Source of the DNA: Spirochaetes bacterium ADurb.Bin215
GTDB lineage: Bacteria > Spirochaetota > Spirochaetia > Treponematales > Treponemataceae
Direction of reading: 5' to 3'
Assembly: GCA_002070025.1 (NCBI GenBank)
Contig: MWCL01000008.1
Span: forward strand, 1-59,861
DNA length: 59,861 nt
Positions 13,071-39,868 of this stretch are shown piece by piece (the first letter of the stretch is position 1; each line of letters begins with the position of its first letter). The position numbers and the translations under genes were made by a program. Below the pieces are notes generated by a model. It was given only the letters and a program-made list of their open reading frames with translations, did not search any database and had not been told where the DNA came from.

Positions 13071-13715
13071 ATGTCGTTATTAACCGCCGCAAGAAAACCG
13101 TTCCGGTATGAATTTCATAATACCGCACTCGTGCTTATCGGACTGAATGTGCTCGTCTATCTCCTGACCAGCACCTCTCCCGATCTTGTCCGTCTCCTTT
13201 CCATGAATCCCCTCTACGTAACCCGGGGCGGTTATTTCTGGCAGGTCTTTACCTATCAGTTTGTCCATGGCGGAATTGGACATCTTCTGTCCAATATGAT
13301 CGGTTTGCTTTTTTTCGGAATAACGGTGGAACGCAAGATCGGCTCAAAGGAATTCCTTCTGCTCTACCTGCTCTCCGGAACCCTGTGCGGCATACTGTCC
13401 CTGTTCGTGTACCTCGCCATGGGGGTGACCTATGTATTCCTCATGGGTGCTTCGGGCGCGGTATTTGCCATCCTGCTTGCCTATGCCGTCCTCTATCCCC
13501 GCTCGGTTATCTACCTTTGGGCCATTGTACCCATTCCCGCGCCTGTCCTCGTTATCGGATATGCGGTCATGGAAACCCTGCACCTCATTGGGGGCGTCAA
13601 TACCGGAGTTGCACACGCAACACATCTGATCGGATTCGCGGTAGCCTGGCTCTATTTCCTTATCCGTTTCGGGATCAACCCGCTGAATGCCTGGTTCGGA
13701 GGACGGAGATACTAA
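13071..13715 (+). CDS. Rhomboid-family intramembrane serine protease
   Basis: A 214-residue membrane protein with about six transmembrane segments. The catalytic serine is S128 in GASGA and the partner His is H186 in HATHLIGF; HGGIGHLLSNM forms the loop with the conserved His and Asn. It cleaves substrates within the membrane plane. The next gene's start codon is 4 bp beyond its stop. No clear Shine-Dalgarno precedes the ATG at 13071. Confidence 0.9.
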   Translation: MSLLTAARKPFRYEFHNTALVLIGLNVLVYLLTSTSPDLVRLLSMNPLYVTRGGYFWQVFTYQFVHGGIGHLLSNMIGLLFFGITVERKIGSKEFLLLYLLSGTLCGILSLFVYLAMGVTYVFLMGASGAVFAILLAYAVLYPRSVIYLWAIVPIPAPVLVIGYAVMETLHLIGGVNTGVAHATHLIGFAVAWLYFLIRFGINPLNAWFGGRRY

Positions 13716-37381: not shown

Positions 37382-38953
37382 TTAGCCGAGGATTTTCTTG
37401 AGGTCCGCTTCCGGCGTTGAAATCGGTGTTACATTCCAGTTGTCAACGAGTACCTTCAGCACGTTCGGCGAAACGAAGGCGGGAAGGGTGGGACCTAAGA
37501 AAATATCCTTGATTCCGAGTGAAAGCAGGGTGAGCAGGACACAAACCGCTTTCTGTTCGTACCAGGAAAGGACGAGGGAAAGCGGGAGTTCATTGACTCC
37601 GCAGTTGAACGCGTCGGCAAGGGCGAGCGCGACCTTGATGGCGCTGTAGGAGTCGTTGCACTGTCCCATGTCCATGATGCGGGGCAATCCACCGATTTCT
37701 CCAAGATCAAGATCGTTGAACCGGTACTTTCCGCAGGCCAGAGTCAGGATAATGGAATCCTTCGGGGTCTGCTTCACGAAATCGGTGTAGTAGTTCCGTC
37801 CGGGCTTCGCGCCGTCGCAGCCGCCAACGAGAAAGAAATGCGAAATGGCGCCGGCTTTAACCGCGTCTACGACCTTCCCCGCGACCGAAAGTACGGTTCC
37901 ATGTCCGAAACCGGTAGTCAGAACATCGCCGCCGTTAATACCGGTCATCTTGCGCTCTTCGGCATACCCGCCAAGCTCTTTGGCTTTTTCGATGACCGCG
38001 GTAAAATCTTTCTTGCCGTCTTTTCCGTCAATGTGCACAAGGCCGGGGAATCCGACAACACTGGTGGTAAACACACGGTCGGAATAACTTGCCTTCGGCG
38101 GCATGATGCAGTTGGTGGTAAAGAGGAAGGCGCCGGGAACCCCGTCGAATTCCTTCTGCTGGTTCTGCCAGGCGGTACCGAAGTTGCCCTTGAGGTGTTT
38201 GTGCTTCTTGAGATCGGGATAGGCGTGACAGGGGAGCATTTCTCCGTGTGTGTACACATCAACGCCCTGTCCTTCAGTTTGCAGGAGCAGCTGCTTGAGA
38301 TCGAGCAGGTCGTGACCGCTCACCACAATGAACGGTCCGGGGGCCACATTGGTGGTTACCTTTGTCGGTTCGGGGGTGCCATAGGCGCCGGTGTTCGCCG
38401 CGTCCAGCAGTTCCATGCAGGCAAGGTTCACCTTGCCGAATTCCATATTGAGATCCAGAAGTTCGGGAACGGTGTGTTCTGCTCCAAGAGCTCGCAGGCC
38501 TTTGTAGAAAAACTCGTTGACCGAGTTGTCGGTCTTGCCGAGCGCTGCCGCGTGGTGGGCATAAGCCGCCATTCCGCGCATACCAAAGAGGAGGAGCGAC
38601 TTGAGACTGCGCGTGTCTTCGTCTCCCGCCTGCCACAACTCATTGAGATCCATTTCGGGATAGGAGCCATACCCGCCCAGATCCGCAACCGCCGTGTCTA
38701 TACGTGCGGCAAGCGCCGAAATCTGCGCATCATCAAAACTCACGTTGGTAATTGCAGTAAAGAGCGCATCGAGAACCAGTTCGTCGGTTTTGGCCGAACG
38801 ACCCTTGTCCTTGACGGCCCGTGACAGGGCAATGAGCTTGCCGGTGAGTCCGTCCTGGAGATTGGCGGTTGATTCCTTTTTTCCGCAGGCGCCGGCAACC
38901 GTACAGGCTTTTCCTCCGGCGGTCTGTTCGCACTGAAAACAAAACATTGACAT
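37382..38953 (-). CDS. hcp: Hybrid cluster protein / hydroxylamine reductase
   Basis: A 523-residue enzyme of the Hcp family (NO or hydroxylamine reduction; protein S-nitrosylase in some bacteria). The N-terminal Cys pattern C-x2-C-x8-C-x5-C (FCFQCEQTAGGKACTVAGAC) is the class I form with a [4Fe-4S] cluster, as in Desulfovibrio, rather than the E. coli [2Fe-2S] form. Hybrid-cluster ligand regions follow (VSGHDLLD, TTNCIMPP, GCDGAKPGRNYYT, TLACGKYRFN). GAGGAGG precedes the ATG. It is monocistronic, with its own promoter/operator and terminator. Confidence 0.96.
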   Translation of the reverse strand: MSMFCFQCEQTAGGKACTVAGACGKKESTANLQDGLTGKLIALSRAVKDKGRSAKTDELVLDALFTAITNVSFDDAQISALAARIDTAVADLGGYGSYPEMDLNELWQAGDEDTRSLKSLLLFGMRGMAAYAHHAAALGKTDNSVNEFFYKGLRALGAEHTVPELLDLNMEFGKVNLACMELLDAANTGAYGTPEPTKVTTNVAPGPFIVVSGHDLLDLKQLLLQTEGQGVDVYTHGEMLPCHAYPDLKKHKHLKGNFGTAWQNQQKEFDGVPGAFLFTTNCIMPPKASYSDRVFTTSVVGFPGLVHIDGKDGKKDFTAVIEKAKELGGYAEERKMTGINGGDVLTTGFGHGTVLSVAGKVVDAVKAGAISHFFLVGGCDGAKPGRNYYTDFVKQTPKDSIILTLACGKYRFNDLDLGEIGGLPRIMDMGQCNDSYSAIKVALALADAFNCGVNELPLSLVLSWYEQKAVCVLLTLLSLGIKDIFLGPTLPAFVSPNVLKVLVDNWNVTPISTPEADLKKILG

Positions 38954-38986
38954 AATTTTTCCTCCTCAGGGTTTCTATCTGTCTGT

Positions 38987-39029
38987 AGTGTATCGATAAT
39001 GACCGGGGCGCAATGTTGCAATTGCAACA
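38987..39029 (-). promoter_or_regulatory. hcp promoter with a Crp/Fnr-type palindrome at -41.5
   Basis: A perfect 16-bp palindrome TGTTGCAATTGCAACA lies at 39014-39029. On the minus strand the -10 box TACACT is at 38987-38992; counting it as -12 to -7 puts the palindrome centre (39021.5) at -41.5, the class II activator position for Crp/Fnr proteins. No good independent -35 is needed. HcpR-type Crp/Fnr regulators are known to control hcp in other anaerobes. Confidence 0.75.
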
Positions 39030-39042
39030 AGACGGTGCGTTT

Positions 39043-39777
39043 TCAGGAGCACACACCAATAGTTAAAAACGATTCGGGGGTCCAAAGTTCACCGGAGAAT
39101 GAACCGAAGAAGCGCGCCCGGGTGAATCCCGCGCTATAGAGATACTCTTCAAGCTGTCGTTTGCGTACCGGCGTCAATTCAACGGAATTTTCTATTTCCA
39201 GCTCCTCTTCCGGGTCGGTAAGAATCGTATCAAAATCGATCCGGCCGTTCGGCTTGAGAAGGGAGTAGTACCGGCTAAAGGTTACTTCCCCGCGTTCAAG
39301 GGTTGGAAGGCCGCGCAGGGCATTGTCGAGAATACGGTCATAATTGATTATCTGAAAAATGAAGACTCCCCCGCCTTCCAGATGCCGTGAAACGCTTTCC
39401 AGAAAAGGTCCGAATTCCGGCAGCTCCAGATGGGGAAGGGTGTTTCCCATACACGTAATAACGGAAAACTCTTCTTCGGGGAACAGCGTGTCCAGATCGG
39501 CCATGCTGGCTTCCAGCAATTCGGTTTTACCCGTATCTACCGGAAAAAGTTTTTTTGCCGCCAGGGAAAGAAGGGCCGGATCGAGGTCGAGACCATACAA
39601 ATGACGAAATTTCCCGCTGAACGCCGAAAGCAGTGCTCCGGTTGCACAACCGATATCAAGATACCGGTCAAAGGGTATCTCGAGGGACATCATTTCCTTT
39701 TCAAGAAATGAAACAACCTGCGCGTCCAGCGGGAAAAGGAGGTCATAATGTTCTGCAATCCTGGTATACATGTCCAT
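39043..39777 (-). CDS. Class I SAM-dependent methyltransferase (paralogue of the gene at 4491)
   Basis: A 244-residue methyltransferase. Motif I is YLDIGCATGALL (about residue 40), motif II GLDLDPALL and motif IV TCMGNTLPHL. The opening RIAEHYDLLFPLD and closing FFGSFSGELWTPESF resemble the first methyltransferase in this window. The substrate is unknown. The second ATG (39777) is chosen because AAGGGA is 8 nt upstream, while the first (39783) is only 2 nt from it. It stops 14 bp before the hcp palindrome. Confidence 0.8.
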   Translation of the reverse strand: MDMYTRIAEHYDLLFPLDAQVVSFLEKEMMSLEIPFDRYLDIGCATGALLSAFSGKFRHLYGLDLDPALLSLAAKKLFPVDTGKTELLEASMADLDTLFPEEEFSVITCMGNTLPHLELPEFGPFLESVSRHLEGGGVFIFQIINYDRILDNALRGLPTLERGEVTFSRYYSLLKPNGRIDFDTILTDPEEELEIENSVELTPVRKRQLEEYLYSAGFTRARFFGSFSGELWTPESFLTIGVCS

Positions 39778-39868
39778 TGGCATCTTCCCTTGTCTTAAAG
39801 AGTAACGGTTCCTGGTGCGGAGTCAATAGCGCCAATTCATTTTTTATGGCATAGTTGGGTACGCATAC

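Follow-up and report, generated by a model that had tools for sequence, protein, structure and literature searches.

HcpR regulons are already known. The distinction between HcpR1 and HcpR2 goes back to a comparative study that also related positions 180 and 181 of these regulators to bases of their DNA motifs (Rodionov 2005, PMC1274295). HcpR2 proteins with proline at position 181, which are associated with the motif GTAAC-N4-GTTAC, were assigned to most Clostridium and Bacteroides species, Thermotogales and Treponema denticola, while in C. thermocellum and C. difficile, whose proteins have Ser181, the hcp motifs deviated; hcp, frdX and hemerythrin genes were all named as targets of the predicted regulons (PMC1274295). 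In a C. difficile hcpR::Tn mutant, hcp and frdX are lowered (PMC12915319). The HcpR2 of D. desulfuricans, which shares 34% identity with its C. difficile counterpart (PMC12915319), has been described as an Fe-S protein (PMC5701242), and the HcpR of P. gingivalis binds heme through Met68 and activates hcp on NO (PMC12750200).

The locus analyzed here adds a further case, from a spirochaete. We consider it very probable that a palindrome upstream of hcp is the operator of an HcpR protein encoded on contig C16 of the same genome, which would activate hcp from position -41.5 within a small nitrosative-stress regulon. As in the Ser181 HcpR2 regulons of C. difficile and C. thermocellum, the regulator is a Ser181 Crp/Fnr protein whose targets include hcp and frdX (PMC1274295, PMC12915319); unlike in those regulons, the host is a spirochaete, hcp and hcpR are far apart, and a hemerythrin gene joins the predicted targets. 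With the Pro181 HcpR2 loci that we read, the system shares hcp as target, the register and a spacing of 21 nt, but the predicted half-site of the C16 HcpR is GTTGC rather than GTAAC, Ser190 (position 181) replaces proline, and a Cys/Cys/Cys/His signature of the C16 protein is absent from Pro181 proteins. The D. desulfuricans HcpR2 likewise regulates hcp but has been modelled as a repressor (PMC5701242), whereas the spacing found here predicts activation. The P. gingivalis HcpR (PDB 9DAY) is the best fold match of a modelled relative of the C16 protein; it differs in being heme-based (Met68; PMC12750200), in having Gln181 and in lacking the signature. The assignment would name a regulator and a small nitrosative-stress regulon for a poorly studied spirochaete genus.

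The preliminary description suggested that the half-site may define a new motif. GTTGC does differ from GTAAC and TTGAC; the motif as such is probably not new, because deviating motifs were reported for Ser181 proteins in 2005 (PMC1274295) and relatives of those clostridia in Acetivibrio (L137) and Metaclostridioides (L135) carry GTTGC-N4-GCAAC. From these sequences, it may well be the same as the 2005 Ser181 motifs. No paper describing the GTTGC motif was found in a search that most subscription papers lay beyond.

The palindrome upstream of hcp and its promoter geometry

The window, a stretch of 59,861 nucleotides from Spirochaetes bacterium ADurb.Bin215, carries hcp on the minus strand (37382-38953). 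Its product, a hybrid cluster protein of 523 aa, matches the Prismane family (Pfam PF03063, E 1e-162) and the hydroxylamine reductase/hybrid-cluster equivalogs TIGR01703 and NF003658 of NCBIfam. Upstream, on the same strand, lie a Shine-Dalgarno sequence, GAGGAG (38962-38967), and an inferred -10 element, TACACT (38987-38992), followed by the perfect 16-bp palindrome TGTTGCAATTGCAACA (39014-39029, assigned to neither strand), a predicted HcpR operator of the form TGTTGC-N4-GCAACA. The palindrome is 60 nt from the hcp ATG, and TACACT starts 21 nt downstream of it. Its centre lies 29.5 nt from the first T of TACACT, which corresponds to -41.5 if this T is -12, a value that depends on a start site inferred from the -10-like hexamer. 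These coordinates and this spacing agree with the preliminary description. The window contains five perfect 16-bp palindromes compared with about 1.1 expected under a first-order model, so that palindromic form alone is weak evidence; the other four are at 968, 5766, 19503 and 54581. A near-match, AGTTGCACACGCAACA (13607-13622), was discarded as a chance occurrence, since it falls within the coding region of a rhomboid-family gene and no -10 element stands at the right distance.

Conservation upstream of hcp orthologues, which the preliminary description had proposed as a check, was observed throughout most of the genus. Across 12 genomes of the genus, there are 13 occurrences of the exact pattern TGTTGC-N4-GCAACA and one of the reversed control; the three occurrences of the pattern in the source genome are confined to functionally linked places (reversed control, 0). 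Ten of the 11 hcp genes in the genus carry a site 50-60 bp upstream of their start codons. The GTTGC-N4-GCAAC core is perfect in nine of these promoters and has one mismatch in the other (L025), and TAnnnT lies 21 nt downstream of the site in all ten. The sole hcp gene without a site (L026) belongs to a genome that is 77% complete (G077), in which HcpR was not detected either. Another member of the genus, G022, lacks hcp, the site and a clear hcpR, its HcpR match being only weak (E 3e-5).

The same geometry extends across phyla. When all hcp and frdX promoters with a GTTG-N6-CAAC site in the examined loci were counted (Spirochaetota, Bacillota and others), the distance from the 16-bp palindrome to TAnnnT was exactly 21 nt in 31/34 hcp promoters (mean per offset, 2.0) and in 36/43 frdX promoters (mean per offset, 3.1); for frdX, the offset is 22 in the source genome and two close relatives. 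Loci of the Pro181 type (L044, L045 and L046), which served as a positive control, show GTAAC-N4-GTTAC at hcp with the same 21-nt offset. A site centred at -41.5 with a fixed spacing is the arrangement of class II activators such as CRP and FNR. The near-invariant spacing, measured to inferred -10 elements, is what class II activation predicts, and the proposal of a class II Crp/Fnr (HcpR) site at hcp stood up in that the site is kept upstream of hcp orthologues at a fixed distance. HcpR, as a homodimeric activator, would be turned into its DNA-binding form by a signal, most likely NO or nitrite-derived stress, would dock at -41.5 and would recruit RNA polymerase to hcp. For hcpR itself, we also considered autorepression via a -35 element inside the site but do not propose it: of 81 distinct hcpR promoters, no more than 15 have TAnnnT at offset 9, and that of the source genome is not one of them.

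One alternative is the opposite reading, that HcpR represses at this site and that destruction of its Fe-S cluster by NO derepresses hcp, as proposed for the D. desulfuricans HcpR2 (PMC5701242). Its sensor side finds some agreement in the proteins: of 129 relatives, 100 have the full set of Cys24, Cys115, Cys119 and His122, which disappears as a whole from the Pro181 and Thr181 groups, and an alignment revealed no such signature in the P. gingivalis HcpR. Because the D. desulfuricans protein is described as an Fe-S protein (PMC5701242), these four residues are natural candidates for cluster ligands. However, repression needs no near-invariant -10 spacing across phyla, -41.5 is the classic position of an activator, and hcp and frdX drop in the C. 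difficile hcpR mutant (PMC12915319). We therefore regard repression as improbable here. The 21-nt spacing provides comparative evidence of hcp activation by the HcpR branch of the C16 type and argues against the repressor model for that branch, although Desulfovibrio could differ.

Candidate regulators and the predicted regulon

The C16 protein, encoded at C16:29629-30279, comprises 217 aa with a cNMP-binding domain (PF00027, E 1e-17) and a Crp-type HTH (PF13545, E 5e-12). Its recognition helix, VDRSALSRE, has Arg180 and Ser at CRP position 181, and its own promoter carries the same palindrome as hcp. It is likely the HcpR of the source genome, because the three exact sites of this genome lie before hcp, between the C16 gene and the divergent 4Fe-4S ferredoxin gene frdX, and before a hemerythrin-domain gene. 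Relatives of the C16 protein are encoded directly divergent from hcp in several genomes of the family, and among 80 named relatives, drawn from Spirochaetota, Bacillota and other groups, most have hcp or frdX as a neighbour. Furthermore, the AlphaFold model of one relative (L119; mean pLDDT 90.5) matched the P. gingivalis HcpR (9DAY) best among all PDB chains. Fold, helix, N4-spacer site before hcp and frdX, and genomic linkage all correspond to a Ser181 protein of the HcpR2 type. The invariant cysteines 24, 115 and 119 are not the N-terminal set of FNR, the half-site is GTTGC instead of the FNR half-site TTGAT, and Ser181 with GTTGC half-sites separates the protein from Pro181 HcpR2 with its GTAAC half-sites.

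The same type of site would serve the divergent hcpR/frdX promoters and the hemerythrin gene, which together with hcp would form a small nitrosative-stress regulon. The hemerythrin site is shared with a divergent Na+/H+ exchanger gene; on the hemerythrin side TATTTT stands at the 21-nt spacing, and the exchanger side has no TAnnnT at that spacing. In the genus, the motif likewise precedes a hemerythrin gene in L086, and it occurs before frdX and/or hcpR in L048/L085, L054/L077, L056 and L078. Some HcpR genes (e.g., L050, L052 and L053) have no site before themselves. The frdX gene of the source genome (L016, about 201-925, on contig C16 of G000) is interrupted by a stop after about 67 residues, with the C-terminal part encoded in a different frame. 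Its counterparts in relatives within the genus are intact, in a single open frame of about 220-250 aa; the frameshift may be genuine or may stem from the assembly. At L079 (G083:C65:3762), the motif with TATATT at offset 21 precedes a gene for a 113-aa protein without a Pfam match, possibly a new member of the regulon.

The preliminary description, made from the window alone, had picked as candidate the Crp/Fnr-family protein P0003 (22258-22932, minus strand). Control of hcp by P0003 through the palindrome would place regulator and target within the same 60 kb, and the protein is kept across the genus. However, its orthologue (68% identity) persists in G022, which has neither hcp nor clear hcpR nor site, and its helix, AREVVSR, has R180, E181 and R185, a combination that the published correlation associates with CRP-like motifs (PMC1274295). 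Additionally, the palindrome is absent from the P0003 gene and present at the C16 gene. P0003 is probably not the regulator, and we give this reading very little credence; the C16 protein takes its place as candidate. No site was seen near the gene of a third Crp-like protein (C39, L015). That the palindrome arose by chance, or terminates the upstream methyltransferase gene (39043-39783), can practically be dismissed: the window does hold five such palindromes and that gene ends about 14 nt before this one, but its sequence and spacing before hcp are kept across phyla, the motif recurs at hcpR, frdX and hemerythrin genes, no T run follows, and the arms are not G+C-rich.

Residue 185 and the innermost base of the half-site

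An alignment of the 129 relatives of the C16 protein revealed invariant Arg at CRP position 180, predominantly Ser at 181 and a variable residue at 185. We compared residue 185 with the half-site in relatives that have a GTTG-N6-CAAC site before hcpR, restricting the count to symmetric C.G or T.A sites. Arg185 occurs with GTTGC..GCAAC in 37 cases and Asn, Ala, His or Thr185 with GTTGT..ACAAC in 49, with no crossed combination (86/86 symmetric sites; Fisher p 3e-25 for residue 185 against base, a value that ignores relatedness). Five other sites fall outside both symmetric classes: L127 (R185, T.G), L130, L149 and L156 (N185), and L064 (T185, A.T). The helix DRSALSN is found in two relatives from Desulfovibrio MAGs (L149 and L197).

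When the recognition helix was left out of tree building, the tree required five changes for residue 185 and five for the site, and the independent pairs all run in the same direction; well-supported branches force only two changes, which leaves a sign test without power. Both kinds coexist in the genome G029: a His185 protein is accompanied by GTTGT at hcpR and hcp, and the gene of an Arg185 paralogue carries GTTGC. A third half-site variant occurs in another genus of the family, g4 (L028-L031), where GTTGG-N4-CCAAC precedes frdX and the HcpRs have ERSALSA helices; the non-Arg side is therefore not limited to T.

We lean towards the view that Arg or non-Arg at position 185 sets C or T as the innermost half-site base in Ser181-type HcpRs, that it has switched several times together with the sites of whole regulons, that it insulates paralogous regulons, and that a single class II geometry has been kept throughout. 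In the C16 protein, the residue at CRP position 185 is Arg194, which goes with C as the innermost base of GTTGC. FNR has Arg at the equivalent of position 185 and the half-site TTGAT, and the rule is therefore not general for the superfamily. No description of it was found in the literature searched, with most subscription journals outside the reach of the search. The rule offers a testable link from residue to base for HcpR proteins across phyla.

Two further groups were observed beside these proteins. In genomes of the family, a separate Crp/Fnr paralogue of the DRSAVSR type (L105, L108, L110-L113 and L115) is preceded by palindromes of the GTTGC type and lacks Cys115 and His122. The genomes with Thr181/Lys185 HcpRs (ERTALSK; L038, L041 and L042) have TAAACGCAAGCGTTTG in common upstream of hcp; this may be a further HcpR motif, but no TAnnnT stands 21 nt downstream of it.
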